Shown here: one piece after another, positions 43,237 to 64,000 of the stretch
Layout: the number at the start of each line of letters is the position of its first letter
Numbering within the stretch: the first letter of the stretch is position 1
Source of the DNA: Halovenus carboxidivorans
GTDB lineage: Archaea; Halobacteriota; Halobacteria; Halobacteriales; Haloarculaceae
NCBI RefSeq assembly: GCF_009831575.1
Contig: NZ_WUUT01000006.1
Location: forward strand, 124,001 to 188,000
Length of the DNA stretch: 64,000 nt
Direction: 5' to 3'
Made by a program: the position numbers and the translations under genes
The notes under the pieces: generated by a model
Told to the model about the DNA's origin: nothing
The model's database searches: none
The model's input: the letters and a program-made list of their open reading frames with translations, nothing else

Positions 43237-43277
43237 CCACCCAAAGGGATTCACCCTTCGCGGGTTTTGGTACTGGT

Positions 43278-43415: not shown

Positions 43416-43468
43416 TGGCTTGCTCTATTCCACGGCTGGTTTAGGTATCCGGTCGCAACCTCTTTCCA

Positions 43469-44740: not shown

Positions 44741-44962
44741 TTAGCAACAGTCGCTTTCGCCGGGCGTCCACTCACACGCATTGCCGGTCGTAAGGTCGTT
44801 CTCGTCAATATACGCCGAAAGGCAGGCGTAGTTACAGAAGTACGCAGGCGACCCACAGTCGTCGTCGCAGTCGCGGACACAGATAGGGTCGTGGTCGAAT
44901 ATACGTGACTCGCAGTACGCACACGTCTCGTCCGCCTTCGGTGTCGAAACAGTCGTGGACAT
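44741..44962 (-). CDS. Small Cys-rich zinc-binding protein (73 residues)
   Basis: A 73-residue protein with CAYCESRIFDHDPICVRDCDDDCGSPAYFCNYACLSAYIDENDL, a dense Cys pattern that includes CxxC and CxxxC, and a C-terminal CEWTPGESDCC. It looks like a treble-clef zinc protein seen in haloarchaeal genomes and plasmids. Start ATG at 44962 leaves a short N-terminal polar leader. Confidence 0.65.
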   Translation of the reverse strand: MSTTVSTPKADETCAYCESRIFDHDPICVRDCDDDCGSPAYFCNYACLSAYIDENDLTTGNACEWTPGESDCC

Positions 44963-47515: not shown

Positions 47516-47713
47516 TGTCGTTCACATCCACGACAGGGGAACGGGCCAGCCCGCCAAGGTCGCCCTTCCCTCTTCCTCGCAACCGAACGGATAGCGGTGC
47601 GTGTCGTGTGGTTGGTTCACCTACTTTCTTGGGACACTAAAAGTGTCGTACAGGCGTACCTCAAGGCTTCACGCGAGCGCATAGGATTTCTCTGATAGGG
47701 CTATTGAGAGCGA

Positions 47714-49939
47714 CTACACTTCAGAACGGACTTGATATAGGGGAGCAGTCAATTCAGAATTACATTCCGCACATCGTACTTCCCCGCTATCTGTTTGGAT
47801 TTTCATTGATAACGAACCGCAGTCACACTCTCTCACTTCTGTCCACTCGCCATCATTGAATGTCTGATTCCGAATTCCAACACTTGCGATAGACTGTCCA
47901 TTTCTTTTATGATAGTTGTCACGAACAGACTGGGAAATTCTATTTTGAAGGTCTTGCCTCTGTTCCGTACTAAACTCGTGGTATCCCTCTATACAAACAG
48001 AGGCCTCACTCACACCTGACCACCATTTGAGAACAAAATCAACGAGTTCTTCGGTACGGTTTTCGATTGCCTCTCTACCCCATTCAACATCATCAGGGTG
48101 CGGAAGTTCTCTCAAGTGCTGTTGGTTTGAATTATCATAGGTCTCTTCCCACTTTTGTCGATAAGGTTTGTTGCTTGCGTGTGGATTATCATCAGGACTA
48201 ATGAGAGCAAGATTACCCAAGGAATTCACACATTCTTCATGCTCTTCAATGCGTTCTTCCGGTAACTCTCTCGGGTTTTGCGGCCAAATGTGTTCGAGTT
48301 GTACCCGTCGACTTCCCATACCAACACCTGTGAACTCACGGAAATCGGCAATTGGCGACTCGCCACTGTTCTGCATTCTCAAATATCTTTCATATTCATA
48401 CAGCAGGTAAACAATTGAGGTCTCGCCAATTCCGCCCCACCTATCATTACCGTTGACAACATCTGGTTGGCGAAGATAGTCTGCGATAAGATAATCTGGA
48501 CAGTATCGACCAAGGTCATCCTCAATTTCCTTTACAACGTATTCATAAGCGGCTTCCGCTGTCTCAAAGACTTCTTCCGGGGGAGTATGGCCTTCGCCAA
48601 AAATATCCTTTGCAGTCTCACTTCGTCCGACCCATGAGACCGGGTATGACATTTTTCGCACATGGGCACGCCTCTTATCCGCCCGAGAGTTAGATATTTG
48701 ATATAATCGAAACGCATGAGTTCGGCACAACTGTATCGTTCTCAAAAACTCTTCACTATGCCCAAACGTCCTGCCTGCACTCATTAGCAAAGACAGATAG
48801 TTGGTCTGTTTCCCTATAGCGTTGAAACTTTTTAGTGCAGATACTATTTCTCTTTCAATCTTTGTTGGATTATTGGCTTCCCGAATTATAACGTCTGGAT
48901 TCGTGATTTTGCGGAATTCTTCCGCCGCTGTTCTCATATCTTGCATATACGCCTCAATCCAAACCTTCTGTTCTTCGGGTGGACGGGATTGTGGTATATG
49001 AGCCGGAATCCGCTTCACTCGACGGTGTATATCTGTGATTGTACTTGTCTCGAAACTGTATTCGCCGGAGAATAATCGCCAGTGTTCTCGTACAAATCTA
49101 TCAACAGACTCTTCGCCACCGTTTTGTGAAACTTTCTCAATTACAGCCCCAATCTTTTGATAAATATCTTCAGCGAGCGACTCGTCATTTTGTCGGTCTG
49201 CACAGAAAATCAAGTAACTTTTTATTTTATCAATAGTTGTCAGGTCTCGCCCTCTATCGTTTAGTACCTCGAAAAAGCGACCTGCTTCGCTTGTCTGTTC
49301 GATAGTGTATGTTGTAACTTGAATATTCGAAAATAACACCTCTGACAATCCGGATAAGAATTCAAGGAAATCGTCTTCTTCATCTTCTTTTTCGTCTAAC
49401 CAATCATGTATAACATCTTTGGCATTAAGAAGATATCCTTGCGAAGGGATACTCGCAGATACACTATCCGTGTCTTCGCTATTAATAATTATCAAGTCGT
49501 AGACTTCTTTTGTCTTTTCTTGTGGCCGAATCCGGGCTTCCCCACGGAAATCAATAAATGTCTCTTGATTATCCTCAATGATTTTCACTACTGGTTCATC
49601 ATCAATCTCTTCATCCTCATACTCTTTCAATCGTTCATTGACACATTGCAATAATATAGTGACAGTAGTAAGTCGTTGCTGGCCGTCGATAACGTTATAT
49701 TGGCTTAATTTCCGTCGTGAAACCGTCTTTGTCCCAACATTTTGAAGAACAATCGTTCCAAAATAGTGGAAACCTTCAAAATCTGCGTTTCTTCTTCTGT
49801 CTCGGTGAAGATGTTCAATATCAGAAAGTAAGTCTTGCACCTCTGAAGTAGTCCATGAATATCCACGTTGGTATTTTGGAACAGTAAATAGTCCGTTTTC
49901 AAATAAAAGTCCTAAATCCTGTTGTTCCGCATCTGCCAT
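47714..49939 (-). CDS. DUF262/DUF1524 (GmrSD-like) restriction protein with zinc ribbon
   Basis: A 741-residue protein. The N-terminal DUF262 domain shows YQRGYSW at residues 23-29 and IDGQQRLTT at 84-92, motifs of the ParB-like nucleotidase fold. The region FEVLNDRGRDLTTIDKIKSYL belongs to the same domain. DUF1524 shows the LEHIWPQNP His-Asn metal motif at about residues 545-553 and NSLGNLALIS. A C4 zinc ribbon (CDCGSLSM...CAECNSEL) ends the protein. DUF262/DUF1524 proteins include GmrSD type IV enzymes that cut modified DNA. It is AT-rich compared with neighbouring genes and stands as defence cargo of element 1. Confidence 0.88.
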   Translation of the reverse strand: MADAEQQDLGLLFENGLFTVPKYQRGYSWTTSEVQDLLSDIEHLHRDRRRNADFEGFHYFGTIVLQNVGTKTVSRRKLSQYNVIDGQQRLTTVTILLQCVNERLKEYEDEEIDDEPVVKIIEDNQETFIDFRGEARIRPQEKTKEVYDLIIINSEDTDSVSASIPSQGYLLNAKDVIHDWLDEKEDEEDDFLEFLSGLSEVLFSNIQVTTYTIEQTSEAGRFFEVLNDRGRDLTTIDKIKSYLIFCADRQNDESLAEDIYQKIGAVIEKVSQNGGEESVDRFVREHWRLFSGEYSFETSTITDIHRRVKRIPAHIPQSRPPEEQKVWIEAYMQDMRTAAEEFRKITNPDVIIREANNPTKIEREIVSALKSFNAIGKQTNYLSLLMSAGRTFGHSEEFLRTIQLCRTHAFRLYQISNSRADKRRAHVRKMSYPVSWVGRSETAKDIFGEGHTPPEEVFETAEAAYEYVVKEIEDDLGRYCPDYLIADYLRQPDVVNGNDRWGGIGETSIVYLLYEYERYLRMQNSGESPIADFREFTGVGMGSRRVQLEHIWPQNPRELPEERIEEHEECVNSLGNLALISPDDNPHASNKPYRQKWEETYDNSNQQHLRELPHPDDVEWGREAIENRTEELVDFVLKWWSGVSEASVCIEGYHEFSTEQRQDLQNRISQSVRDNYHKRNGQSIASVGIRNQTFNDGEWTEVRECDCGSLSMKIQTDSGEVRCAECNSELTAPLYQVRSEV

Positions 49940-50011
49940 GCTAATGCCCTAATGACGGACGGTTAAAAACTGTAAGGGTCAACCTAATAGTATAGATGTC
50001 TCGATAGTCGG

Positions 50012-50497
50012 TTATTCGTCGTCACCCACGTTCGGGTTCGGCGTCTCGAAGCCGTCCCTGTAGCAAGGCCAGCAGGGCAGGTCTTCGAAGAGCGGGCTAC
50101 AGTCGCAGTCTTCGGGACGGTCGTCGTCGCGGTCGTCGGCACCGAACTCTTCGAGGGTCATGCCCCCGTCGGTCGCGGCGAACTTCGGCGTCCCTTCGAC
50201 GTGCTGACCGAGTTGGGCGTCTACCTCGTCGGCGTCAACCCATGCCGGAATCGGTCGCTTGCCCGTAGCGAACGCCACCCGGCGGATGTGTTTGCACTCG
50301 ACGCTCCGGTACTCGTGGTCAGGGCAGGTACACCTGCCTTCACGGGCGTCCACACGATACTCTCCGTTCTCGTTCTGTCCGACGACAGTGTAAATGTCGC
50401 CGCCTTCAGGTAGAACGGCCATGTACTCGGTGAGCGCTCGCACGTCGCGCTCTTCGAGGTCGTTACTCTCATGCCTCTCGGCGGTCGTAGTTTGCAT
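50012..50497 (-). CDS. SWIM zinc-finger protein
   Basis: A 161-residue protein with the SWIM motif CTCPDHEYRSVECKHIRRV (CxCxnCxH) at residues 57-75, followed by a charged tail with more Cys (CDCSPLFEDLPCWPC). SWIM modules bind DNA or protein partners. Such genes are common in haloarchaeal plasmids and near transposons. The protein follows the DUF262 gene in the same direction. Confidence 0.87.
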   Translation of the reverse strand: MQTTTAERHESNDLEERDVRALTEYMAVLPEGGDIYTVVGQNENGEYRVDAREGRCTCPDHEYRSVECKHIRRVAFATGKRPIPAWVDADEVDAQLGQHVEGTPKFAATDGGMTLEEFGADDRDDDRPEDCDCSPLFEDLPCWPCYRDGFETPNPNVGDDE

Positions 50498-51005
50498 TGG
50501 TCTTCACTCCCGAAGACCCACTGCCTGCCTGTCTTCAGCAGGCGGGCTTTTACCGAAATCGCCCCATAGAGACAGTGCGTCTACTATATGCTACGTTCTA
50601 TAATCTTATTATTCTTGGGTATTAATAAGTCATTCAAGATTACCTTGGTGAATTAGAGCGCATTCACACAGCCGCACAGAGCCGCAGAGCGCACGTCAGA
50701 AACGACGCCCCAATCTACTCGGTTGCGGCTCGACTGCGCTCACGCGCCACTCTCGCCGTCTCTCGGCCCACGCACAGTACACCGGCACACGAATCGGGCG
50801 AAAACTGTACGCTGAAGCCTCAATACCCACAGATCCATCCCCAAATGAGGGAAGGACTGAAAGGGCCTCGGTACGTACAATGTAATGAAACGCCCGACGG
50901 CGAAGGGTGCGTTCGTGAGCCGGTTCAAATCTCCCCGCAATTCGCAGGGGCGTACCTGCCGAAATCCGGCGCTATACGGTCAATGCGCAACGAACCGCAA
51001 AATCA
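50498..51005. other. Right end of element 1, non-coding
   Basis: No gene is visible. The segment GTGAGCCGGTTCAAATCTC (50915-50933), followed by AATTCGCAGGGGCG (50939-50952), is repeated in similar form before the att copy of element 2, so it may hold integrase arm sites. The rest has no recognised features. Confidence 0.5.
50915..50952. repeat. Candidate integrase arm-site motif, element 1 right end
   Basis: It resembles 63596-63639 (shared CCGGTTxAAATCTC and AATxCGCAGGxGxG), at 85 and 78 bp from the corresponding att copies. Confidence 0.5.
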
Positions 51006-51023
51006 TGCCGCCTCCCGGATTTG
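51006..51023. repeat. Middle attachment copy of tRNA-Phe 3' end (18 bp)
   Basis: An 18-bp exact match to the tRNA-Phe 3' end (63676-63693). The sequence that follows up to about 51080 keeps only pieces of the tRNA, such as CTGAGCTAAG near 51067-51077. This fits an att site between two tandem elements. Confidence 0.8.
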
Positions 51024-51105
51024 GCCCCTCGGGGCTGCTGTTGCCCCTGAGTCAAGCTTTCCGGCCTGAGCTAAGCTGCGTCGGGCGTTCTGCGGAGAGC
51101 AAACA

Positions 51106-52116
51106 ATGGAACTCGAACCAATCGCTCCCGCAGACGCAAAGGAAATGTTCCTCGCACAACGGCGTGACGAGGTTTCAGAAGCAACGTTGCAGGGCTATCA
51201 CTACCGCCTCAAGCCCTTCGTGCAGTGGTGTGACCAAGAGGGCATTAGGAATCTTAACGACCTAACGGCCCGCTCGCTTCACGAATACCGCTTGTGGCGG
51301 AAAGAAGACGGAGACCTGAAGACGATTACTTTGAAGGGGCAGCTATCGACCCTTCGCGTGTTCCTGAAGTTCCTCGAATCAATCGACGGAGTAGAGCAGG
51401 GTCTACACGACAAGCTGCTCGTTCCCTCGGTCGAAGACGAAGAAGCAGTTAGTAACAGTATGCTTGAGGCAGAGCGGAGTGAACACATTCTCCGCTACCT
51501 CAGCAAGTACGAATACGCCTCGAAGCGTCACACGCTCTTTGCGGTGTTGTGGCACACCGGCTGTCGGATGGGTGCTGCTCACTCTATGGATGTTTCCGAT
51601 TTCGACCGGGAGAGCCAAGCGTTGAAAATCCGGCATCGTCCCGACACTGGAACGCACCTGAAGAACAAGCAGGCTGGCGAGCGTATCTGTGCCCTCTCCC
51701 AAGAGGTATGCGAAGTGCTGGAGGACTACATCAACGTGACCCGTGACGAGGTGACCGATGAACACGGACGGGAACCCCTCTTCACGACTCAATACGGACG
51801 GATGCACAGGTCGAAAATTCGGGAGATGGTGTATGCTGTTTCCCGCCCCTGTGCCTACGGGAAGGAATGTCCACACGGTCGAGAGCCTGACTCGTGTGAG
51901 GCAGGAAACTACACGCAGGCAAGTAAGTGCCCTTCCAGTGTCTCGCCTCACGACATTCGGAGAGGTGCTATTACTCATCTCCTCAGGAACGAAGTTCCGA
52001 AGCAGGTTGTGTCTGACCGGGTGAACTCTTCCCCTGAAACGCTTGAAAAGCATTACTCGCAGTTGACCGAGGAGGAGAAGATGGAGCAACGAAGAGACTA
52101 TCTTGAGGAACTGTGA
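51106..52116 (+). CDS. Tyrosine recombinase (integrase) of element 2
   Basis: A 336-residue integrase homologous to that of element 1 (same residues GYHYRLK, LRVF, SPHDIRRG). The catalytic Arg is in HTGCRMGA, HxxR is in SPHDIRRGA and Tyr is in TLEKHYSQ. The Cys cluster CAYGKECPHGREPDSCEAGNY...KCP is kept. It begins 83 bp from the att copy, like its homologue. Its stop is followed by a hairpin. Confidence 0.92.
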   Translation: MELEPIAPADAKEMFLAQRRDEVSEATLQGYHYRLKPFVQWCDQEGIRNLNDLTARSLHEYRLWRKEDGDLKTITLKGQLSTLRVFLKFLESIDGVEQGLHDKLLVPSVEDEEAVSNSMLEAERSEHILRYLSKYEYASKRHTLFAVLWHTGCRMGAAHSMDVSDFDRESQALKIRHRPDTGTHLKNKQAGERICALSQEVCEVLEDYINVTRDEVTDEHGREPLFTTQYGRMHRSKIREMVYAVSRPCAYGKECPHGREPDSCEAGNYTQASKCPSSVSPHDIRRGAITHLLRNEVPKQVVSDRVNSSPETLEKHYSQLTEEEKMEQRRDYLEEL

Positions 52117-52121
52117 CCACT

Positions 52122-52149
52122 TGAGGCGATAAACACATCCTCCGCCTCA
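52122..52149 (+). terminator. Hairpin after integrase 2, candidate terminator
   Basis: TGAGGCG (52122-52128) pairs with CGCCTCA (52143-52149) around a 14-nt loop that includes AAACACATCCTC. It begins 5 bp after the integrase stop. Archaeal terminators are mostly T-rich, so this is uncertain. The loop text resembles the start of the 84-bp repeats at 61915 and 63292. Confidence 0.35.
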
Positions 52150-52338
52150 GGTTTCTAAATCACCTGTCGTTAGCTTTTGTTACCCTACGGAGCCGAGTGA
52201 TGACTATACGGAATAATCCGGGTACGGCGTAGCTGTACAATAGCCTCTTTCGGATTGTATTGGCTCTTGCCCACAAACAGGGAAAGCCTGTGTTCATCCC
52301 CCGAAGAGGGTGCTTGTGGTTCGAGATTTCTTAATGGC

Positions 52339-52899
52339 TCAGGATGGTTGATTTCGTCGGAACTTTTCAACGCCATCACTACATCGTTCCCAGAACTCTA
52401 TCCAAGTCTCTCTGTCCCAGTGCCTATGGGTATTGCTCAAGAGGTAGTGGTCCAAGCCCTTGTGATTCCAGTCAAGTTTCAGTCCCTCAATATTCCGTCT
52501 GTCCGTTTTATGACCCGAAGCTTGAGAGTGAGTTATCTCCCTGTCGTTGATGTAGCGGTAGTACCACGTTGCAGCATTTTTGCCAACAAACGCAATTCGG
52601 TTTGGATTGTGAGCATCAATCCGGTCCATCAGACTCTCAAGACCACTCAATACTTGGTGCGCTTCAATATCGCTGTCCTTGGCTACCCTGAACTCCTCAG
52701 GGTCAACAATCTCGGTGAGATAAATACCGTACTCTTTGCCAAGTTGTCGGTAATCTTCGGGGGCTATCTGTTCGTCCGTTATCCCCGCATCCCGAAGCGT
52801 TCCCCAGAACCGATTATTGTGATAGATGTAGTATGCATCTTGTTCCTTGCTCTTCGAACTCCCACAGACAAACGTATGATGCTTCATATCAAGGTTCAC
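52339..52899 (-). CDS. Uracil-DNA glycosylase superfamily protein (MUG/TDG-like) with altered motifs
   Basis: A 186-residue protein with the MUG/TDG layout: N-terminal TFVCGSSKS (where GxNPG is usual), NNRFWGTLRDAGITDEQ at 28-42, GIYLTEIV, the NPNRIAFVGKNAATWYY strand, and a C-terminal YLLSNTHRHWDRETWIEFWE that corresponds to motif 2. The catalytic Asn of GxNPG is not visible, and the second motif differs. It may act on another base or have lost activity. A start at 52887 (MKHH) is also possible. It is cargo of element 2. Confidence 0.68.
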   Translation of the reverse strand: MNLDMKHHTFVCGSSKSKEQDAYYIYHNNRFWGTLRDAGITDEQIAPEDYRQLGKEYGIYLTEIVDPEEFRVAKDSDIEAHQVLSGLESLMDRIDAHNPNRIAFVGKNAATWYYRYINDREITHSQASGHKTDRRNIEGLKLDWNHKGLDHYLLSNTHRHWDRETWIEFWERCSDGVEKFRRNQPS

Positions 52900-52992
52900 A
52901 GACCAGTGTCCAATATCTATTTTGCTGCTAAGGGGCGGTTAGAGAGGTAACTGGTCAAGGGACTTGGGGCGGTCAGGTGCTTACAGAAGTCG

Positions 52993-54759
52993 TTAGAAGT
53001 CTGGGAAGTCAAGCAGGTCCGGCCACTCGAACTTTTCTCTTTGTTCGACGACCTTCGTTCCCCTGTCGTCCACCTCCTTACACTCAGCTATACCCAGAGT
53101 TTCGAGTAATTCCATCCGTTTCAGTACGGTTGGTTCTGTGTAGGGCGTCTGTTTCGTCAGGTCGGAAGTGGACAGGCTTCCATCGTTTTTGGGATTCAAC
53201 ACAGCCCGAACGACCGGACGACGTTCCTTCGGCATCGTACTCAGGGCGATGCGGGCACAGACTTGAGCATCCTCTATCTCAATCTGCTTTCGGCCACAGA
53301 GCAATGCGTGACCACGGGCAATATCCCGAAGAGTCGTTGCAATCCGGTGAGGGCCTTCTTTCTTTGTGGTTCCATCCTCGACGGGTGCGCGAGCGTGAAC
53401 GACAAGCATTGTCAGGTACTCGAACACCTGTTGAAGCTCGTTGGAAAGGGAACTCTCCCATTCTACACTCCCGTAGCCGCCGTGTTCACTCCAAAGGTCG
53501 TTGAGCAATGTCTGAACAGCCTTTTGACACCGAGCTACCTTCTTGCCGTACTCGTCGTCGTCAAACACATCCGAGACTGCCTGCGACATATCCGTCATTT
53601 TGCTCTTCTCGTGGAACACCAGCCGATTACCAGTGTGACCCATCACGTCCCACGCTCTTCGAGGGAGTGGGGTAGTCGCACCGAGGAAACCGAAGCGGTA
53701 ATCTCCCTCATATCCACGCTGACCGTGTGAACCCGTGTCCCTCACGTAGCCGTCTCCGTCCATCACATTCGCAACGACGGCCATCCACTTCTTGATGGAA
53801 GCTTGGTCTCCGGCGAACCAACTACTCATATCCTTACACGTCATCAGTTTGTGCTGGATTCGAGGGAGCAGGTCCAGCTTTTCTAGCTCTTCCTCGTCTT
53901 TCGAGGGTTCGGCACTCACGAAAGAGGCGGGAGTTGCATCGTCGCTTCTCTCCACTAAATTATCTAACCCATCGTTGAAGAACCGGATTACAGTTGATTT
54001 GCCCGCTCCAGTTTCTCCAACAATAACAAGCCCGGTGCAACTTTGCAAACCTTCGAGGAGGAGTGAAGCCGGAACGCATAGGGACGCCTCGGTTACTTCC
54101 CACGTTTGTTTGTCGAACTCTTCGAGAACCGTTTCCCGAACATCAGAAAGAGGGTTATCGGATTCTAAGCCAGCGGTGTCACTACTATCGCCGTTAGTGT
54201 GTTCATCTGCAATGTACTCCTTGTGAAGCTCCTTCAGGGCGCTCTCTCGCTCTTCCACGCTTGCGGGAGCCTGTTCAAGTCTATCCCCCGTAACAGGGAA
54301 CACACGCTCTTTGCCCGTCATCTCAACGTCGCTGTTACGTTCTCCATCATCGGGGAGTGGTCCCTTTACAAAGAGGAGGATGTGCGTTTGTTCAGGTCCG
54401 TATTCTGCGTATGAGTCTACTGTGTCGATAATCTCCTCAGCCCATTCTTCAGGTTCTCCATCGCTAACTGCGTTTTCCAACCGAATCCCGACAAGAGAGT
54501 CGTCTTCAGTTAGTGTAAACCCGAGTCCATCCATCTCAGCAGACGGTGCATCTGAGAACACCTCAGCCGCTTCATACCCGACAAACGTATTCGGGTCAGA
54601 TGGGTTTACCCGGCTGTCTGTTTTCGGGTTGGCTGGATACCTCTGCCCGTTTTCATCGGTTGACCAACATACCCACTGGTCACGGGACTGCAACGCTTCG
54701 GGAATGTGGTTGGCAAGTTGTTCGTCGCCGTCGTTCGATGATTTGGTATTCGTTGACAT
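52993..54759 (-). CDS. PrimPol/helicase-like replication protein with degenerate primase motif
   Basis: A 588-residue protein. Residues 18-180 resemble the N-terminal domain of archaeal and viral primase-polymerase proteins (IPEALQSRDQWVCWSTDENG; PANPKTDSRVNPSDPNTFVGYEAA; GFTLTEDDSLVGIRLENAV; and VFPVTGDRLE). Where active PrimPols read VGVDLDD, this protein has VGIRLEN (residues 90-96), so two metal-binding Asp appear lost. A P-loop GETGAGKST at about residue 245 starts an ATPase domain. The C-terminal 60 residues look like a winged helix (SLSTSDLTKQTPYTEPTVLKRMELL). Likely replication or maintenance ATPase of element 2. Confidence 0.65.
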   Translation of the reverse strand: MSTNTKSSNDGDEQLANHIPEALQSRDQWVCWSTDENGQRYPANPKTDSRVNPSDPNTFVGYEAAEVFSDAPSAEMDGLGFTLTEDDSLVGIRLENAVSDGEPEEWAEEIIDTVDSYAEYGPEQTHILLFVKGPLPDDGERNSDVEMTGKERVFPVTGDRLEQAPASVEERESALKELHKEYIADEHTNGDSSDTAGLESDNPLSDVRETVLEEFDKQTWEVTEASLCVPASLLLEGLQSCTGLVIVGETGAGKSTVIRFFNDGLDNLVERSDDATPASFVSAEPSKDEEELEKLDLLPRIQHKLMTCKDMSSWFAGDQASIKKWMAVVANVMDGDGYVRDTGSHGQRGYEGDYRFGFLGATTPLPRRAWDVMGHTGNRLVFHEKSKMTDMSQAVSDVFDDDEYGKKVARCQKAVQTLLNDLWSEHGGYGSVEWESSLSNELQQVFEYLTMLVVHARAPVEDGTTKKEGPHRIATTLRDIARGHALLCGRKQIEIEDAQVCARIALSTMPKERRPVVRAVLNPKNDGSLSTSDLTKQTPYTEPTVLKRMELLETLGIAECKEVDDRGTKVVEQREKFEWPDLLDFPDF

Positions 54760-55153
54760 TGTTTTCCCTTCTCATAAGCGAGACCCGTAGCTGTTCATCG
54801 GCAGTAGCACTCTTGAATCCGCTACCGATTGCTGGTGAGGCGTGCAATCCTATCAGCAATCAGGTGCATTACGGCCTCTGTGTGCTGATAGCAGCCTCTC
54901 GTCAGGGGTCTCGCCTTACTCTATCCATAGTGCCCGAGCCACTTATTTCTTGTCAAAATTCTGTCAGGGTAGAGGCGGTATATATATTATTGCTTCCGTC
55001 GAGCATATCTCTCTACTCAAGCTCGCTACATACCATCAAACATCACCCCAGTTCGCATTTATATTCTACGTGGGGCCATCATTAGCATAAGAATCAGAGC
55101 CAACGCACATCTATCGCCAAACTTGATATGTGAGAGGGGGAAAGTGCCCTACA
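54760..55153. other. Divergent region between PrimPol-like gene and RM gene
   Basis: About 390 bp without a gene. Two AT-rich patches (54978-54990 and 55058-55065) may be promoters for the downstream RM gene or the PrimPol-like gene. The rest shows no clear feature. Confidence 0.45.
54978..54990 (+). promoter_or_regulatory. AT-rich TATA-like run upstream of RM gene
   Basis: GTATATATATTAT at 54979-54990 is a strong TATA-like run. It is about 165 nt from the RM start. A second candidate, TTTATATT, lies at 55058-55065, about 90 nt from the start. Confidence 0.35.
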
Positions 55154-58100
55154 ATGAGTAGTGAAGCAGATGTTATCTCGGAATTTGACCACCGTCTACG
55201 CTCTGCCATCGAAGAACAAGATGAGTACTATAACACTACGTTCACAGGTATAAGCAGGGAACTGTACGCTGATTCGACTCAAGGATATGCAGATTTGGTT
55301 CTTGAAGTCGGAAACGAGGAACCATTTTTAGTCATTGAAGCAAAGCGCGAGCCTGAGGAGGAACCCGACCGTTCTATTGACCCATACTCACAGGAAGTGA
55401 TTTCTCAAGCCGCTAACTACGCATTCCATCTCGGGGCCGAATATTTTGCAACGTACAATCGAAACCGGCTGGTACTCTTCCGCACGATGGAGCGAGGAAC
55501 CAACCTTTTGGACAGGAAGACTCTGGCCTACGAAATTGATGACTTGGCAGCATTTGTCCCCGAGTTTCTTGAAGACCTTGCCGGTTTAGAGGTTGATGAA
55601 GTTGAATGGGACCCCCATCAAGATGCTTTCATCAAACGTCTCGGTTCGTTCCACGACTTGATGAAAGAGCAGTTTGACACGCTGCTGCGAGAACGGTTAG
55701 AGAATGATTCCGAATTCGAAAGCCGATACGAGGAATGGGTAGAGGAACAGGGTTGGCAGGAGCGATACGAAGACAACCCTGACGAGATACACGCCAGCTA
55801 CGCTTCACAATCTGCCTACCTCTTGATGAACAAGCTGGTCTTCTACAAATTGCTTGACGAAGCAGATGCCTACGTTAATGTTCCCGACATAAATATAGAG
55901 CAACTGGTTGACGCACAGACAAGGCGGGAAACGTTCGATAGGTTGATTGAACAGGTAGACTTCGAAGCGGTTTATGAGCAGAGTGATATTTTTGATTCTC
56001 TCCGTCTTACAGAAAGGGCGCAACGAGAAGTTTCCAGTCTACTTGAAGACCTTGAAGACTACAATTTGGACCAGTTTGACCACGACGTTATCGGTCAGAT
56101 ATACGAGGAAATTATCCCCCCGGACGAACGCCACAGTCTCGGGCAATACTACACCCCAAAGGAGATTGTAGAGCTAATCATCGGGCTTACAGTTGAATCC
56201 AGTGACGATACGATTCTTGACCCAGGCTGTGGCAGTGGCGGCTTCTTGGTAGGTGGTTACAACGAAATTGAATCACGTTCCGAAGACAAGGACCACGAAG
56301 AGATACTCGAACAAATCTATGGAGTTGACATTAACCGATTCCCGGCACACCTCTCTGCTATTAACCTCGCACTCCGTGACCTTTCGACAGAAACTCACGA
56401 CACCCATATTGTTGTTGAGGACTTTTTCAATCTAATCGAATCACAGGGTCGGGTTGTCTCAGCTCAAAAGGCTGATGTTGGTGACAGTGAAGAAGAATCA
56501 GAAGATGAAGACGACTACGGAGTAGAGATACCATCAACCATTGACGTAGCTGTTGCCAATCCACCATATATTCGTAATGAGAATATCGCTGACGAAGAAA
56601 GAGTCAGAAGCCACCTGAGTAACCTCGGTATCGACCTCAGCGAACGGTCCGATATTTTCTGCTATTTCTTCACCCACGCATATGAGTTCCTTCGTAAGGG
56701 AGACAACGACAAGCCTCCCGGTCGAATGGGCTATCTCACCTCAAACCGTTGGCTGACAGCAGGATACGGTGAGGACCTTCAAGAATTCCTTCTTGAGAAT
56801 ACAAAAATCAATGCAATCATAGATTTCCAAACACAACAATTCGAGGTCCCTCTCATTAGTACCTGTGTGACTATCCTCGAAAGATGCGATGACGAGGAAG
56901 AACGCAACGAGAATCTCACTGAACTTCTACACGTCAAAGAAGAACTTTCCCCGACGGAGATTATTGATATTCTGGAATCTGACCACGAACCAGGAACGCT
57001 CGAAGATGAGGGGCAGGGCCGTTATCGCCGGGTAACGTTCCGGCAGGGAGACTTACACGATATTGAACGATGGGACCGCTATCTCTACGCACCTGGGATA
57101 TATTGGGACCTTCTTGACCACGAACAAATCTGCCAATTTGGAGAGATAGCAGACCCCAACTTCGGGACAAAAACTGGGAATAACAGCTACTTCTATTTCG
57201 AGTCTGAAGAAGAATACCAAGAGTTTGGTCTTGACGAGCGGTTTGTGACCCCTATCCTCAAACATATTGCCCAAACAGAATATATTCGACTGACTGATGA
57301 AGACCCAACGTGGTACGTTCTGGACCTGCACGACATAGTAGGTGAGATTCTGAATAATAAGGAGAACAGTATTATGGAACAGCGGTCTGACGAGGAAATT
57401 CTACTGGAAGAATTTGAAGAGCGTGGGTGGGACAACCTGATACAGTATCTCGAACTCGGGAAGGAGCAAGACGTCCACGAAGGAACGAGCGTCCAGAATA
57501 TCGGAAAAGTATGGTTTGATGTGGGGGAACTGCCAGTTGCAGAAATCATTCTGCCTAAAGAGTACTGGCGAGATTCTCGCGTGTTGTGGAATGAAGCCGG
57601 TATTCCTCTTGACCAGCGGAATATGGAAGTGGATGTAACAGACGACAACGTTGACCCCCTTGTCCTACTCGGGATTATGAATTCCTCTGTCTTTCCGTTA
57701 ATCCGGGAAATCGAAGGCCAGAGAGAACAAGGGCAGGCAATGGACCGTAACGAATTGAAAGTTGAGCAAGCCGAAGAATTGCATATTCCAGACCCCCGAA
57801 CATTCAGTGATGAAGAATGTGAGGCAATTAAGAGTACAATCGTGGAGTGGATGGAGAACGAGCGAGCTATTGACGCTGAGGGGGATGAAATCGAGGACTG
57901 GAGCGACCCTGAAGAGATAGAAGAGGACCCTCAAAAATACCAGGACCGACTTGATGAAGCAGTCTTGGGTGCGATGGGGATGGAGGAAAAAGTTGAGCCG
58001 ATTCAGTCTGCTGTTGAACAACTGATAAAGGACCGTGAGGCTGGAGGAGGAGAGAGTACGGCTGTCTTGGTCGAAAGCGATAGCACAGATGACGATGATG

Positions 58101-58183
58101 AAGACGGTGGACGAGAAATTGAAATTCCTGGTGCCCGACGAGTGGACGATGGCGGAGGACAATCAAGTCTTAATTCATTCTAA
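55154..58183 (+). CDS. Single-chain type IIG-like restriction-modification enzyme
   Basis: A 1009-residue protein. The N-terminal 140 residues hold a PD-(D/E)xK-type nuclease motif, YADLVLE then FLVIEAKRE (D47, E62 and K64). The central N6-adenine methyltransferase has DPGCGSGGF at about 356-364 and NPPYI at 469-473, preceded by GQYYTPKEIVELI. The C-terminal third (TGNNSYFYFESEEEYQEFGLDERFVTPIL) is a TaqI-like specificity domain. One polypeptide holds cleavage, methylation and target recognition, as in type IIG enzymes. The start at 55154 gives MSSEADV. Only 2 bp separate its stop from the PLD gene. It is notably AT-rich. Confidence 0.85.
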   Translation: MSSEADVISEFDHRLRSAIEEQDEYYNTTFTGISRELYADSTQGYADLVLEVGNEEPFLVIEAKREPEEEPDRSIDPYSQEVISQAANYAFHLGAEYFATYNRNRLVLFRTMERGTNLLDRKTLAYEIDDLAAFVPEFLEDLAGLEVDEVEWDPHQDAFIKRLGSFHDLMKEQFDTLLRERLENDSEFESRYEEWVEEQGWQERYEDNPDEIHASYASQSAYLLMNKLVFYKLLDEADAYVNVPDINIEQLVDAQTRRETFDRLIEQVDFEAVYEQSDIFDSLRLTERAQREVSSLLEDLEDYNLDQFDHDVIGQIYEEIIPPDERHSLGQYYTPKEIVELIIGLTVESSDDTILDPGCGSGGFLVGGYNEIESRSEDKDHEEILEQIYGVDINRFPAHLSAINLALRDLSTETHDTHIVVEDFFNLIESQGRVVSAQKADVGDSEEESEDEDDYGVEIPSTIDVAVANPPYIRNENIADEERVRSHLSNLGIDLSERSDIFCYFFTHAYEFLRKGDNDKPPGRMGYLTSNRWLTAGYGEDLQEFLLENTKINAIIDFQTQQFEVPLISTCVTILERCDDEEERNENLTELLHVKEELSPTEIIDILESDHEPGTLEDEGQGRYRRVTFRQGDLHDIERWDRYLYAPGIYWDLLDHEQICQFGEIADPNFGTKTGNNSYFYFESEEEYQEFGLDERFVTPILKHIAQTEYIRLTDEDPTWYVLDLHDIVGEILNNKENSIMEQRSDEEILLEEFEERGWDNLIQYLELGKEQDVHEGTSVQNIGKVWFDVGELPVAEIILPKEYWRDSRVLWNEAGIPLDQRNMEVDVTDDNVDPLVLLGIMNSSVFPLIREIEGQREQGQAMDRNELKVEQAEELHIPDPRTFSDEECEAIKSTIVEWMENERAIDAEGDEIEDWSDPEEIEEDPQKYQDRLDEAVLGAMGMEEKVEPIQSAVEQLIKDREAGGGESTAVLVESDSTDDDDEDGGREIEIPGARRVDDGGGQSSLNSF

Positions 58184-58185
58184 AT

Positions 58186-59223
58186 ATGTCCGATGAGACA
58201 TTCCTTTCTGGCACTGGGGAAACAACGACACAAGCCAAGCTATCCCAACTACTGGATGAAACGGACGCTCAGGCACTCTACTTTGCGTCAGCATACGTTA
58301 CACAGAGTGGGGTAAACCGCATTAAAGAGTTGCTTGAAGAGCATCAGATTGAGACGTGTGTGGCTGTCTTCGGTCTCAATGGAAATATTACGCAACCAAG
58401 CGCGATAGATACAGCCTTGGACCTTGGTTGGGGTCTGCGCCTAATAGAAGGTGGAAGCCACCAATTTCATCCGAAGATTGCTTTGGTTGGAGGAGTGGAG
58501 CCGAAGCCTCTTTCGGAAGTGTACGGTGGATATATCGGTTCTGCGAATATCACGAAAGGAGGCTTGGTAGACAATATTGAGGCTGGTCTCCTTGTGAGGG
58601 ATGAAGAAACTATTGACAGTCTTAGTGAAACCGCTGGAGAGATTTGGGAATTGGCTAACCCGGCTGAAGATGTGGATTTGGAAGCCTATGCAGAACGATA
58701 TGCGGAAACTGCGAGAGAGCGACCTACAAGTTCGCAACCCCCCGGTGTAGGTGCTTCTCCGGCGAGCGAGACCGAAACAGAGGAGGAATCTGAACCACCA
58801 GAAAAACCGTCTTATCAACCTGAACACGCCAAAGCTGGTTGGGCAGGATTAGAGTCGTTTACAGGAGACTATCGGTTCCAGGTAGAATTCCCAGGAACCG
58901 CAGGAGAAGTCATCAATGAAATGGTTGGTGCGGAAGAAGAAGTAGATGTTCTGTGTTCAGATGGAGAGACACGAGAAATGCTATACGATTTCTACGAAGA
59001 CAATGGAATGTTCAGGTTGAACATTCCGAACGAAGTTCCCGGCGTTCAACAGGCACGAAGGGAAGAATCAGGCATTGCGATTGTAAGGGAATGTGACGAG
59101 CCTGATGCATCCTTGGAACTAGAGATTATCAATGAGGATGAACGGGTTGATGAATTCGTTAGTCGCTCTAAGAGGGAGGGGTCGTGGGATGAAACCCCAA
59201 CGCGACTATACGGGTGGTTCTGA
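58186..59223 (+). CDS. PLD-family (HKD) nuclease-like protein
   Basis: A 345-residue protein with an HKD motif in FHPKIALVGG (H95, K97) and GSANITKGGL (G118, S119 and N121). One HKD copy is visible, so the protein would act as a dimer, as BfiI-like restriction enzymes do. Residues about 185-215 are a low-complexity linker rich in Ser, Pro and Glu (ASETETEEESEPPEKPS). The C-terminal 130 residues are unassigned. The gene starts 2 bp after the RM stop, so it is almost surely cotranscribed and may act with it. It could also be a phospholipase-like accessory protein. Confidence 0.75.
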   Translation: MSDETFLSGTGETTTQAKLSQLLDETDAQALYFASAYVTQSGVNRIKELLEEHQIETCVAVFGLNGNITQPSAIDTALDLGWGLRLIEGGSHQFHPKIALVGGVEPKPLSEVYGGYIGSANITKGGLVDNIEAGLLVRDEETIDSLSETAGEIWELANPAEDVDLEAYAERYAETARERPTSSQPPGVGASPASETETEEESEPPEKPSYQPEHAKAGWAGLESFTGDYRFQVEFPGTAGEVINEMVGAEEEVDVLCSDGETREMLYDFYEDNGMFRLNIPNEVPGVQQARREESGIAIVRECDEPDASLELEIINEDERVDEFVSRSKREGSWDETPTRLYGWF

Positions 59224-59265
59224 ATTTTTCTGCAATTCTACAACGTTAGCCTTCAACCCAGCTAA

Positions 59266-61794
59266 TTATACTGGAATTATATCTTTTTCCAAGAATTCTC
59301 TCAATTCCGTGATTTCAAGCCCGCTTTCTGCTATCTCTTCATCAATATTTTTGAATAACGTTTCTGCGTCCTGTTTAGTGACGTGTACGAAGAATTCATT
59401 ATCTACGTCTTGATGGTACATTTTCCCACCATTCATCGTCTTGTACAACTGCTCATAGAAGGTATGGATATTGTCCCGTATGATTTCAGAATTCTCATTA
59501 AATCCGATGTGGAGTGCCAGTAAGAAACCAGAATGCATTAGCACCGGAACGCCATCCCAACTTTGCATCCGATTAAGCTTCTTTGCCCCAACTGACCCGA
59601 AATTCCCGGGCTGCGCGTTGGTAATCACAACGAAATTCTGGAATTTGGTGTCGGATTTCTGTACTTCCTCGCTCTTGTAGATTCGAAGAGCGTAATCACT
59701 CAGCGTGTTCGCCTCTTTAGTTGGCATACTCAGTTCGTCCGAAGTAGTAAATTTACCATCGTAGGCGAATGAGCGGAAGTAGTTTCTATCCCCCTTGAAG
59801 AAGAAAAGTTCCCCAAATCCATCTGGCTGGTTTCCTGTTCGCTTAGTTCCCCACTGCTCAAGGCTTGAAACAGTCTGTTTTAAGATATGGAAGGCATCTT
59901 GTTCAAATTCTTCTCCCCTATGGTCTTCCGGGTTTGAACATACCTCCTGTATATGGTCAAACGCATCAACAGCGTTGTCTGTAATTCTCTGTTGCGTGTT
60001 TCGGGCAACCCTCTCAACTTTCTCTGTAATGTAATCCTCTGGCAATGAGTCCTTCAAGTCTCTATCTATCATCTCACTCAAATCTACTACTTCAGATGTG
60101 ACTTCTTCAATCAGAGACTCGTCAATGACCGTCCCCGGGTTCAGCACCAAAACCGGTTGGATACTTTTTCGGAGATGGTCTGCACTTCCAGAGGTGAGAT
60201 TTGATTCTGGTGTGTTGAGGAAAACGCGAACAATGTCACTCCCAGTCCCGACTTGCAAGAATTCGTACTCCTTGCCGTAGATTTTCTCCCTTTTCACACC
60301 ATAATAGACCAGTCCTTCGCTCTTCACTTTCTCCCGGAAGTAGCTCCTCACTCCCTTCTTTGAAAGGTCCAACTCGAATGAGGTATCGAATATTCTTAGG
60401 TCATTTCCACAGTTGGGGCAGTCATCATAATTTCGGTTGTAGAAGCGTTCACAGCCCTCACACTGTGTTCTATTAATTTCTGTTCGATTGAGTACTCCAA
60501 GGTCGTTAACAAGGGCATCGGTTAACTCATCATCTTGAATATAGCGGGTTCCCCAGTATGAGACACCTTTCAGCATCCTCGAAATCAGGTCAGTACGAGC
60601 CTTCGTAATCCAGTGGAGAGGTATCTTCTTGTCCAGTGGGATTCCAAATTGGTCTTCGAATTTTTCTCGAATTCGGTTACTCTTTCGCTCAGAACGAGTC
60701 TTGATGATAGAGTTGAGACGTAGATACCCGTTTTCCACGTTCTCCTCAATCGTAACACGAACATCAACACCTTCACACCGGAACCAGAAACGTCGTATAT
60801 TTGTTAATTCGATATTGATGATTTCCTCAGAGAGTGCCGATAGAACCGGTCTGATTTCCCGCTCAGTTGATTTCTTTGAGACAGAAATCGGTAATGACGG
60901 TTGAACATTCGTGTTTCTGAACTCCGTATTTAGTAGCGTGATTTCCTCGTCATCATCTACATTATGTCTTGAGAATTCTTTCTCGAACCGTGACCGAGAG
61001 ACGTTATCCTCATCGTCAACTAAATCTGCTTCAGCTGTAAGTATCGAAAATATCTCCTCAACCTTGGTCAGAAGTGTATCTCTGATTCCTTTGCTTTTAG
61101 TGTCAATAGTGATTTGCTCTGCTTCAGTATCAACCTCTAAAAACACATTTCGAACGTCTCGCCGCCTCTGAGCGCCAGTCACGTCTAACTTTTCAGTATC
61201 GGAAGTCTGACGTGAGATAGCAAAGATAGTAGACTCTGAGGAGGACAGTTTATTTTTGCTACTATACCTGAAATTCTCTGCTCTCGTTCCTTGTGAAAGA
61301 CTTAGTTGGATACCCCGGATGTTGTCCTCAAACCGATTCTCGTAGTCATCGGGGATTTCATTTCGAACATTATATCGAGTTTTGTTGTTACTATCAAGCC
61401 ACCCGCTGTAAAGCAAAATCTGGTAGACTATATCCTCATCTCCATCAAGGATTTTTTCTATGACGTATCGATATTCGGTTCCCTTGGTAATCTGGTCGCC
61501 CCTCTTATGTGCTAACTCGCGTGCAGAGAGTCGTTTATCATTAAGAAAGCGATAAAGGGTGAAGAGAAACACAGATTCTTCGCTCTTTTTCACAAGCTCC
61601 GAAAAAATACCACCTTCAGACATATCAACACCAGCAAATTCACAGACCGCTTCGAGCGCATCTCTATCTAAATCACTCAGGACATTACTGAATTTGTCGC
61701 TGTATGTCTCACTCCACTTGTCTTCGTATTTGGAGTAATCGGAGGGCACGTCTTCAAGTAGTGAGTGAACATCTCTCTCAGCCGCGTCTGACAT
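59266..61794 (-). CDS. Large protein with zinc ribbon and C-terminal FokI-like nuclease motif
   Basis: An 842-residue protein that I cannot match to a named family. The N-terminal 430 residues are mostly helical and charged. A zinc ribbon CEGCERFYNRNYDDCPNCG is at about 443-462. The C-terminal third has a nuclease-like pattern: QPDGFG then FAYDGKF (about 657-682), PD followed 20 residues later by DGK, as FokI has PD...DTK, with a preceding conserved EDHRGEEFEQDAFHIL. It is convergent with the PLD gene (42 bp between stops), AT-rich, and its start is 250 bp from the bPH gene. Probably a second restriction-type effector; function is inferred. Confidence 0.55.
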   Translation of the reverse strand: MSDAAERDVHSLLEDVPSDYSKYEDKWSETYSDKFSNVLSDLDRDALEAVCEFAGVDMSEGGIFSELVKKSEESVFLFTLYRFLNDKRLSARELAHKRGDQITKGTEYRYVIEKILDGDEDIVYQILLYSGWLDSNNKTRYNVRNEIPDDYENRFEDNIRGIQLSLSQGTRAENFRYSSKNKLSSSESTIFAISRQTSDTEKLDVTGAQRRRDVRNVFLEVDTEAEQITIDTKSKGIRDTLLTKVEEIFSILTAEADLVDDEDNVSRSRFEKEFSRHNVDDDEEITLLNTEFRNTNVQPSLPISVSKKSTEREIRPVLSALSEEIINIELTNIRRFWFRCEGVDVRVTIEENVENGYLRLNSIIKTRSERKSNRIREKFEDQFGIPLDKKIPLHWITKARTDLISRMLKGVSYWGTRYIQDDELTDALVNDLGVLNRTEINRTQCEGCERFYNRNYDDCPNCGNDLRIFDTSFELDLSKKGVRSYFREKVKSEGLVYYGVKREKIYGKEYEFLQVGTGSDIVRVFLNTPESNLTSGSADHLRKSIQPVLVLNPGTVIDESLIEEVTSEVVDLSEMIDRDLKDSLPEDYITEKVERVARNTQQRITDNAVDAFDHIQEVCSNPEDHRGEEFEQDAFHILKQTVSSLEQWGTKRTGNQPDGFGELFFFKGDRNYFRSFAYDGKFTTSDELSMPTKEANTLSDYALRIYKSEEVQKSDTKFQNFVVITNAQPGNFGSVGAKKLNRMQSWDGVPVLMHSGFLLALHIGFNENSEIIRDNIHTFYEQLYKTMNGGKMYHQDVDNEFFVHVTKQDAETLFKNIDEEIAESGLEITELREFLEKDIIPV

Positions 61795-61914
61795 ATGTCA
61801 TCGGACAGTCGCTTCGTACTTATCAGTTGCGTGCAGGAAGGGTAAGATAGTGTGCAGATTAGCTAATTTAGGGTGGTCATTTGATACTGCTCTTGAAAAG
61901 TTCAGATACGGGTG

Positions 61915-61998
61915 TTTCTGCGGGACGGGTAAACACACTCCTCCCTCAGAGAGGTTCAGCAATCAGCCCGGAGGCGGTGTGTTCACTTCTCTTTACGA
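61915..61998. repeat. 84-bp hairpin repeat, copy 1
   Basis: It begins near TTTCTGCG and has TAAACACACTCCTCC...GGAGGCGGTGTGTTCAC, which can pair as a stem with a small internal loop. It ends near CTTTACGA. It lies between the divergent 842-residue gene and the bPH gene. A copy of the same length is at 63292-63375. Confidence 0.7.
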
Positions 61999-62044
61999 TG
62001 AAGTCACACAACCAATATGTATATGAATGGCTATTAAATCGCAT

Positions 62045-63199
62045 ATGGGACTGTTCAGTAGTGGACCAGATGAAGAGACACAGGACCTAATTGATGGCGC
62101 AAAGGGTGGTTCTGTCACCGCTGATAAACTAACCAAAGCAGAGACGGGCCGGATGGCGTGGGACCGGCTGAATGATGGGCCACTGATTGACCATTTCTCT
62201 GACGACGAGCAACCCCACTATATATTCTCTCAGCAAAGCAAATCGGGGGTTCGAGTTTCGGATGGACAGAGTATCCAGCCAGATGGAAAGTACCGGACGA
62301 TGATGGCTGTAACTGATGACCGCGTTCTGTTCACTGCTGGCGGGGACAATGGAGACTCTATGCTCTCTATAGATTACGAGTCAATAACGGATATAGAAGC
62401 ACGGAGTGGTCCAGAGAAGAGTGATGGAAGTGGGAAGGTCACTGTGTCCCTGAACACGGAAGATACGTCGGTTACCTTTCCCATCAAGACCGCAGGCTCA
62501 GTGAACTTGGCAGATGTACATTCTGACGGCGATGAGGTACAGGAAGCAGTTGATTACATTTCCTCACAGGCAGCCGCAGATGTAGACCGGACAGAGAAAG
62601 AGAAGTCGTCTATACGTAGTGCCCGAAGACGAATCTCAGACGAGGAGAGTGGGGATTACGTCACACCCGAGCGGGTGAACAAGGTGAAAGATATTCTCGA
62701 TAGCGGAGAGGAGGTTTATTATCTGACCCGAGGCTCAACGGTTGATGTAGAAGGGTCATCGGCAGGGGAATCACTGTGGGGAGACGACAGAAGCCGGAAA
62801 ACCGGAACGAAAGGATACGTGAGAGCGGTAATCACGGACAAAAGAGTAGCAGTCAAGGTCCCACAGCTAACCGGGAATGACGAGCGTTCTGTGCCCTATG
62901 AGAGCATTACAAGTGTGGACTTGGATACTGGTCTGGTCAACAAGCGCCTCTCCCTACAGACACCGGGACAGACATACCATATTGAGGCTCACGAACCCGG
63001 AAAAGACGAGGTACGGCGAGCGGTCAAATTCATTCGGAACAAGATTACCGAATCTAATGAGGAGACTGTCGTAGTTGAGGATTCATCTGAGCCAGACCCA
63101 ACGGAGCAATTGAAGAACCTCAAGGAACTCCACGAACAGGGTGTATTGACTGACGAGGAATTTGAGGAGAAAAAATCAGACTTACTCGATAAAATATGA
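62045..63199 (+). CDS. Protein with two bPH-like domains and a C-terminal SHOCT domain
   Basis: A 384-residue protein. The first half has the pattern KYRTMMAVTDDRVLFTAGG and YESITDIEARSG; the second has EVYYLTRGSTVD and RAVITDKRVAVKVPQ with VPYESITSVDLDTG. This is the alternating strand pattern of bacterial PH (DUF2510-type) domains. The C-terminal 30 residues (TEQLKNLKELHEQGVLTDEEFEEKKSDLLDKI) are a SHOCT domain. Such proteins may sense or scaffold at the membrane. The start at 62045 (MGLFSS) is preferred; an ATG six codons upstream is possible. It is flanked by the 84-bp repeats. Confidence 0.78.
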   Translation: MGLFSSGPDEETQDLIDGAKGGSVTADKLTKAETGRMAWDRLNDGPLIDHFSDDEQPHYIFSQQSKSGVRVSDGQSIQPDGKYRTMMAVTDDRVLFTAGGDNGDSMLSIDYESITDIEARSGPEKSDGSGKVTVSLNTEDTSVTFPIKTAGSVNLADVHSDGDEVQEAVDYISSQAAADVDRTEKEKSSIRSARRRISDEESGDYVTPERVNKVKDILDSGEEVYYLTRGSTVDVEGSSAGESLWGDDRSRKTGTKGYVRAVITDKRVAVKVPQLTGNDERSVPYESITSVDLDTGLVNKRLSLQTPGQTYHIEAHEPGKDEVRRAVKFIRNKITESNEETVVVEDSSEPDPTEQLKNLKELHEQGVLTDEEFEEKKSDLLDKI

Positions 63200-63291
63200 G
63201 TTTCGTTAAAATTCCTCACCCCACGTAGGTCGGTTGTTGAGACAGTGTATTCAGAGAGTGGTCTATCATCAATGAGCCAGTATACAATTGC

Positions 63292-63375
63292 CTTCTGCGA
63301 AGGCGAGTAAACACACTCCTTCCTCAGAGAGCTTCAGCCGGAAACCGGGGGGAGTGTGTTCACTTTCCTTTACGA
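63292..63375. repeat. 84-bp hairpin repeat, copy 2
   Basis: It begins near CTTCTGCG and has AACACACTCCTTCC pairing with GGGGGGAGTGTGTT through 14 positions, including two G-T pairs. The loop starts CTCAGAGAGCTTCAGC. Compared with copy 1, several stem positions differ while pairing is mostly kept. It ends near TTTACGA. Confidence 0.7.
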
Positions 63376-63595
63376 CCAGAGAAATGGGTCGGAAAATCCC
63401 GCTAATCTGGTTGCATCTGGTTCCAATTTCCAAAGCGGGGTGGGCCGGTCTTCCAGTTGGATTCCAACAGCGCGTTATAAAAAAGACGAGCCTCAGACGC
63501 TCAGACGAGCAAAATCAGGCACACCGAAAGTTTCTAGGAGTTACAGCGCGTTTCGATTATTGCAGAACGCCAGACGTGAGCCGGTGCGTCCGGGG

Positions 63596-63639
63596 ACCGG
63601 TTGAAATCTCACAGGGAAAGCGCGAATCGCAGGAGGGCG
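63596..63639. repeat. Candidate integrase arm-site motif, element 2 right end
   Basis: ACCGGTTGAAATCTC (63596-63610) and GAATCGCAGGAGGGCG (63624-63639) resemble 50915-50952 at the right end of element 1. Confidence 0.5.
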
Positions 63640-63675
63640 CGGATGCTCTCGGCTAAGGTTCGTGCGGCCGCAGGA

Positions 63676-63749
63676 TGCCGCCTCCCGGATTTGAACCGGG
63701 GACAGCTCGATCTTCAGTCGAGTGCTCTCCCAGTCTGAGCTAAGGCGGC
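63676..63749 (-). tRNA. tRNA-Phe (GAA), integration target
   Basis: On the minus strand the acceptor is GCCGCCT/AGGCGGC (discriminator A), D-arm GCTC..GAGC, anticodon stem CTCGA/TCGAG with loop CTGAAGA (anticodon GAA), and T-arm CCCGG-TTCAAAT-CCGGG. It has 74 nt. Its 3' end faces element 2, and the same 3' sequence is repeated at 42110 and 51006. Confidence 0.95.
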
Positions 63750-63856
63750 GCGCATTCGACCCGAAGGTGAGCCACACAAAAAGGATTACGATACCCGACC
63801 GGAATCCCTCGATTCGCTTCCACGTCTCTCTCTCCTGCCGCCGGCCCGTCGTTCGT

Positions 63857-64000
63857 TCACCGCTCGCTCATCCACTCTTTCGCCTCCTCCATGCTGTCGG
63901 TCCACAGCGCGTCGTACGGCAGTGCTTCGAGGCGGTCCTGCATCCGGTCGCGGTCCATCTGTGCGATTGCACTCTCCGGGTAGACGACGCAGTTGTACTC
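63857..64000 (-). CDS. C-terminal end of an unidentified protein
   Basis: A 47-residue tail of a minus-strand gene that continues beyond the right edge. It reads ...VVYPESAIAQMDRDRMQDRLEALPYDALWTDSMEEAKEWMSER. The acidic, Leu- and Met-rich composition fits a haloarchaeal protein. I cannot name a family from this part. Confidence 0.55.
   Translation of the reverse strand, partial: EYNCVVYPESAIAQMDRDRMQDRLEALPYDALWTDSMEEAKEWMSER

Follow-up and report, generated by a model that had tools for sequence, protein, structure and literature searches.

Two similar repeats of 84 bp flank a single gene in the haloarchaeon Halovenus carboxidivorans, and the question that they raise is what such a pair is for. 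The original prediction, made from the letters alone, proposed that the repeats might be the ends of a small mobile cassette, recombination sites or regulatory RNAs. The answer has some bearing beyond this locus, as haloarchaeal chromosomes hold many small elements that are integrated at tRNA genes and carry defence genes, and to our knowledge the replication and cargo exchange of these elements are largely untested. Below, the window is the whole 64-kb stretch of H. carboxidivorans DNA that was analysed, all coordinates are positions in the window, and the integrated element that it contains is called the Halovenus element.

The integrative element and its repeat pair

Both repeats are present as predicted, at 61915-61998 (hairpin 1) and 63292-63375 (hairpin 2), in equal orientation on the plus strand and with 84 nt each, and they are 80% identical (E=5e-13). 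Hairpin 1 contains the dyad GTAAACACACTCC...GTGTGTTCAC, and hairpin 2 a complete dyad with 14-nt arms. A search of the whole Halovenus genome with copy 1 returned only copy 2 besides chance matches, and thus no further full copy. The prediction that one gene lies between the repeats also holds. This gene of 384 codons is read from the plus strand, with its ATG at 62045, 46 bp beyond the end of hairpin 1, and its stop at 63199. It encodes bPH_3 (PH-like) domains and a SHOCT domain (Pfam E=1.4e-24 and E=6e-10), its structure model likewise yields PH-like matches, and the protein is perhaps membrane-associated.

The repeats reside in an element of 12.7 kb that is integrated in a tRNA-Phe gene (63676-63749, minus strand). 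The attL core ATGCCGCCTCCCGGATTTG (51005-51023, plus strand) duplicates the tRNA-Phe 3′ end as an exact 19-bp direct repeat of the attR core, which is located at 63675-63693 (plus strand) inside the 3′ end of the tRNA gene at the far end of the element. A tyrosine integrase gene (51106-52116, plus strand; Phage_integrase E=8e-13) begins 82 bp from attL, and its product is 81-99% identical to the integrases of sister tRNA-Phe elements, in which the attL layout recurs. Other genomes carry elements with variable cargo at the same tRNA, namely the sister elements of genomes labelled here G026 and G071 and the related elements of G099, G180 and G203. A Halobacterium hubeiense plasmid has a truncated, 90% identical integrase but no intact element.

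Next to the integrase module are two minus-strand genes. The first (52339-52899; PF03167 E=2e-5) is uracil-DNA-glycosylase-like (UDG-like) and, on a tblastn map, present in the Halovenus and G071 elements and absent from that of G026. The second (52993-54759) encodes a replication protein with a PrimPol-like N-terminus, an MCM-like AAA+ region and a winged helix. Its assignment comes from phmmer matches to primases (7rr3/6a9w/7ola), a match to the PHROG DNA primase/helicase family (E=2.5e-31) and a structure model of moderate confidence that resembles MCM AAA+ proteins (mean pLDDT 64, with residues 201-588 mostly at about 60-90). The adjoining interval, 54989-61923, holds variable cargo that is unrelated in the sister elements and is of defence type, with an IIG-like methylase and a DrmC-like PLD protein. 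Beside these two genes is a third, at 59266-61794, whose 842-aa product has no match in Pfam or PADLOC and is a candidate for an undescribed defence protein.

At the right end, a conserved attachment arm of 127 bp (63549-63675, plus strand) adjoins tRNA-Phe. This arm is common to many tRNA-Phe elements and a handy marker of them; its counterparts beside tRNA-Phe in other haloarchaeal genomes show 70-82% identity. It is present in only 9 of 146 family genomes. A second integrase gene lies to the left, at about 42226-43227 and beside tRNA-Leu; its product is 55% identical to the first, and an 18-bp att-like match links the tRNA-Leu with attL of the Halovenus element. The region 42110-51023 is possibly a second element in tandem.

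The hairpin pair itself was found in only two more of the 146 family genomes, G026 and G071. Both belong to other genera and both carry it at tRNA-Phe, so that the predicted search for copies elsewhere was positive. The order of hairpin, gene and hairpin is constant in the three genera, with spacings of 1377, 1377 and 1356 bp. A covariance model run over 391 genomes of the class recovered these three carriers plus a weak match in G160, and hence no convincing locus outside the three elements. We judged the G160 match (L095, about 1490-1560) to be due to chance as regards the repeat family; it resembles an ORB-type origin, with TTCCACACGAAACGAAGGGGTGGGGGGG and an AT-rich flank. Exact-pattern scans for the repeat in genome contigs and viral contigs gave no match.

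The three carriers show where cargo is exchanged. The Halovenus, G026 and G071 elements share homology on both flanks, one stretch running from att to about 54988 and the other from 61924-61926 to the tRNA, and everything in between differs (for G071 the compared stretch begins inside the integrase). Homology thus ends within about 10 bp of hairpin 1. Because homology resumes at 61924-61926 and the cargo to the left differs, hairpin 1 is the sharp right border of the exchanged cargo. No such site is found at the left border near 54988.

To the left of hairpin 1, the G026 element retains what is left of a second bPH gene, a decayed 3′ end together with the 3′ flank, at 75-78% identity over 233 bp; in the Halovenus element this flank is the stretch between the gene and hairpin 2 (63200-63291, plus strand). 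Because of this remnant, we think that a tandem duplication of gene plus repeat as one unit probably gave rise to the pair. The remnants to the left of hairpin 1 end at different points in the Halovenus, G026 and G071 elements, and such ragged ends fit homologous exchange or decay better than the action of a precise recombinase.

A mobile cassette should carry its repeats along with its gene, and this is not what we found: bPH/SHOCT homologues outside these elements are without the repeats. Since this is so, and since the G099 and G180 elements keep their own sites around unrelated terminal cargo, the sites are, on this comparison, a property of the element and not of the bPH gene, and the repeats cannot well be the ends of a cassette built around that gene. 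In G094, 93-bp repeats around a bPH gene were set aside as they are not hairpins but the duplicated 3′ end of a dehydrogenase-like gene. There a lone bPH/SHOCT gene lies between direct repeats that are 97% identical (L088, 9044-9136 and 10573-10665), and the locus has the appearance of a minimal integrated element that lacks an integrase.

A third site and a layout in three places

A shorter related piece had been noted after the integrase, and it proves to be genuine. This copy, site 1 (52124-52150, plus strand), consists of the left arm only and starts 8 bp 3′ of the integrase stop. It matches AGGCGAGTAAACACACTCCTCCCTCAG in 25 letters with small gaps, and its Smith-Waterman score of 18 was reached in 1 of 1000 shuffles of that region and in none of 200 shuffles of the element. 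Site 1 is kept in both sister elements, and the Halovenus element holds three sites in all, with hairpins 1 and 2 as sites 2 and 3. Of the three places, one immediately follows the integrase stop, another is an internal border, and the last lies some 100-400 bp in from the far end.

This arrangement returns, with another site sequence, in four more elements, which brings the base for this comparison to seven elements, with sites of roughly four types; all seven were found through sequence related to the Halovenus integrase, attachment arm or bPH gene. Three of them (G099, G180 and G203) lie at tRNA-Phe, have intact ends and encode integrases that are 81-85% identical to the Halovenus integrase. 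In G099 and G180, near-perfect site copies of 24-29 bp follow the integrase stop, follow a primase-like gene and precede the arm. The G203 element, whose arms are related to those of the Halovenus element, has AGTAATCACAC after the integrase, the inverted pair CAGTAATCACACTGG...CCGGTGTGATTAATCG in mid-element and an inverted single arm at its right end. The fourth, in G123 (L086, 8018-19188), is integrated at tRNA-Arg, has an unrelated integrase and carries a bPH/SHOCT gene; of its three long hairpin repeats of about 80-90 nt (E=3e-15 and 2e-9), one follows the integrase, one is central and one lies about 300 bp short of the distal att. G074 offers a weaker match of like kind, 22 bp long (E=0.001) and some 230 bp short of att.

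The match between the post-integrase site and the right-end region exceeds shuffles in all six elements compared in this way, with 0, 0, 12, 16, 30 and 53 of 2000 shuffles scoring as high. Most of about 20 other elements tested, with integrases of 44-57% identity, lack a detectable layout. Scans of viral contigs for the G099-type site and for the attachment arm found no match.

What lies between the sites is exchanged from one element to another. The Halovenus element has only the integrase-att module and the arm in common with G099 and G203, that is, the parts outside sites 1 and 3, and in G099 and G180 the sites alone are conserved around swapped terminal cargo. One explanation is that the sites are dedicated recombination ends, where a recombinase would insert or exchange payload modules at terminal and internal repeats. 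Cargo borders do coincide with sites, the shared parts lie where this explanation would place them, and sites 1 and 3 are mutually inverted in G099, G180 and G203. However, the remnants beside hairpin 1 stop unevenly, as fits decay or homologous recombination, the sites contain no target-site duplication or att-core-like sequence that we could see, and the left cargo border lacks a site. We consider dedicated ends improbable. The prediction of recombination sites survives in a weaker sense, given the break in homology at hairpin 1 and the swapped cargo of G099 and G180, whereas ends cut precisely by a recombinase are less favoured. Whatever the primary role of the repeats, recombination at them is visible in the cargo borders.

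Positions relative to genes bear on another explanation, in which an element-wide transcription regulator would use the sites as its operators, with hairpin 1 immediately upstream of the likely bPH/SHOCT promoter and the others at the integrase and right ends. The 46 bp between hairpin 1 and the bPH ATG include an AT-rich stretch, in G099 and G180 the terminal cargo gene is on the minus strand and has site 3 upstream, site 2 is upstream of a plus-strand gene in G203, and single half-sites exist, one of them ahead of the first G071 cargo gene. Yet site 1 is at the 3′ end of the integrase gene, and in the Halovenus and G203 elements it lies between convergent genes; of the two sites that flank the terminal cargo, one is beyond the 3′ end of this cargo in the Halovenus, G099 and G180 elements; and no obvious regulator gene is common to the Halovenus, G026 and G071 elements. 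Operators therefore seem unlikely to us, if a contender to be kept in mind. Regulation of bPH genes as a general feature we reject, as bPH homologues occur without the dyad.

Sequence and structure of the arms

The original prediction took both repeats for hairpins and saw selection for structure in stem bases that differ yet stay paired. The consensus is a stem of 20 pairs (5+4+11, with 1x1 mismatches). Copy 2 forms a long hairpin that is more stable than dinucleotide shuffles (z -3.3 on the plus strand and z -4.5 on the minus strand), and to this extent the hairpin claim stands. Copy 1 does not exceed its shuffles (z about -1.1), and its predicted plus-strand fold differs from the long hairpin. 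Across the six hairpins, a number that gives low power, the covariation score is 0.120 compared to 0.121 in shuffles, with 343 of 500 shuffles as high. Twelve of the 20 stem pairs never vary in the six copies, and one pair has changed on both sides. Paired changes consequently give no sign of selection for structure, and the proposal of regulatory RNAs loses the covariation that would have supported it.

The sites might nonetheless be the source of structured or antisense RNAs, such as a small RNA able to base-pair with the integrase mRNA at its 3′ end. The fold of copy 2, the invariance of most stem pairs the location of site 1 at the integrase 3′ end and its complementarity, in G099 and G180, to sites 2 and 3 are all in keeping with such RNAs. 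Several observations oppose them: covariation is at the level of shuffles, copy 1 is a poor hairpin, G071 copy 1 has lost its apical loop, the sites of G099 and G180 are not hairpin-like in predicted folds, and an Rfam search over 45000-64000 found only the tRNA and weak chance matches. An RNA function accordingly strikes us as quite unlikely.

The arm core is invariant in the six copies, while loops and left flank diverge. This pattern also speaks against the view that the pair is a mere by-product of a tandem bPH/SHOCT duplication and has no function of its own. The bPH remnant in G026 is what that view would predict, but it leaves unexplained both the third copy after the integrase and the like layout in unrelated elements, and we give it very little credence.

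The arm letters read AAACACA or GAACACA in the Halovenus clade and AATCACAC at all four arms of G203. They change together within an element, and unpaired single arms take part in this. Because the letters co-change even where there is only a single arm, the comparison points to arms whose sequence is recognised in trans, either by a protein or through base pairing to a second copy, and not to a local RNA fold.

Candidate replication sites and their counterparts

Our preferred explanation, which we hold to be quite plausible though somewhat short of probable, is that the repeats are cis-acting DNA sites of the tRNA-Phe element that serve its replication and also form borders of cargo exchange. 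The arms would be read for their sequence by an element-specific DNA-binding protein, either singly or as inverted pairs, and the latter could also extrude as hairpins. The likeliest reader would be the replication protein of the element, and the sites would start or organise replication of the excised circle by a logic comparable to that of satellite-island iterons. As modules that are otherwise unrelated resemble each other most at the sites, homologous recombination would also exchange or duplicate cargo there. The bPH/SHOCT repeat pair would stem from one such tandem duplication of gene plus site, after which the first gene decayed.

We favour the replication protein as reader because several elements have a site near the 3′ end of their replication gene and because site sequence differs between elements with different replication proteins. 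Site 1 is about 230 bp from the end of the primase gene in G026 and about 120 bp 3′ of the replication gene in G203, site 2 is about 80-100 bp 3′ of the replication gene in G099 and G180, and in G123 a gene of 1024 aa, called primase-like by eye only, terminates 14 bp from site 1. An origin 3′ of the initiator gene is moreover known from satellite islands, the phage-inducible PICIs (PMC6092414), which adds to the case for this reader, as do the MCM-like AAA+ region and winged helix of the Halovenus replication protein. Against a replication function, a UDG-like gene lies between site 1 and the replication gene in the Halovenus and G071 elements. Nor does this reader explain everything, because the G203 arms resemble those of the Halovenus element (AGTAAWCACAC) although the two elements have replication proteins of different types and share only the integrase. 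We judged the integrase unlikely as the reader of the sites: the integrases of G099 and G180 are the closest outside the clade (84-85%), yet their sites are unrelated.

Among known systems, PICI/SaPI iterons offer several likenesses, including an integrated element with an integrase and a primase-like replication protein, short repeats specific to the element and a site lying near the replication gene's 3′ end. Unlike the PICI origin, in which two sets of iterons surround one AT-rich stretch 3′ of the initiator, the Halovenus element has single or dyad sites that are kilobases apart. No AT-rich melting stretch was found at the sites, whose regions have 43-55% GC compared to 49% for the element, and we identified no helper virus or packaging gene for it.

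The P4 satellite is also targeted to a tRNA gene, and its primase-helicase binds ori and crr, separate cis regions that are both needed for replication. This is a resemblance only, as protein family, iterons and host domain all differ from those of the Halovenus element. Integron attC sites are hairpins with imperfect pairing that close a gene cassette, and the elements that hold them have a tyrosine recombinase; the Halovenus element has these features as well. It differs from an integron in that its arms are conserved in sequence and not only in structure, its cargo is far from the integrase and forms no array, and a copy of the site is located at the integrase end itself.

The origin recognition boxes (ORBs) described in haloarchaea (PMC3528665, PMC3936714), which have a G-string and belong to orc1/cdc6 origins, also occur as inverted pairs, and the loop of some hairpin copies is ORB-like (TTCAGCCGGAAACCGGGGGG). 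This part is the variable loop, however, which is degraded in Halovenus copy 1 and deleted in G071 copy 1, and no orc1/cdc6 gene was seen in the Halovenus element. We rejected an Orc1/Cdc6 ORB origin because the resemblance is confined to a loop that is not conserved.

More broadly, haloarchaeal elements with several types of integrase might share an undescribed three-site system of element-specific repeats, located after the integrase, at the border of the cargo and just within the far attachment site, that runs replication and sets the joints at which defence and other cargo is swapped, a generalisation that we regard as possible but doubtful. If the three-site layout is true, it would give a simple sequence mark for finding such elements and the borders of their cargo, and it would permit a direct plasmid test of element replication. 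Finally, the 222 bp that follow the integrase gene (52117-52338) are 82-89% conserved in the sister elements despite differing neighbour genes, and contain site 1 and another TGTGTTCAT half-site. This stretch is possibly the replication origin itself.
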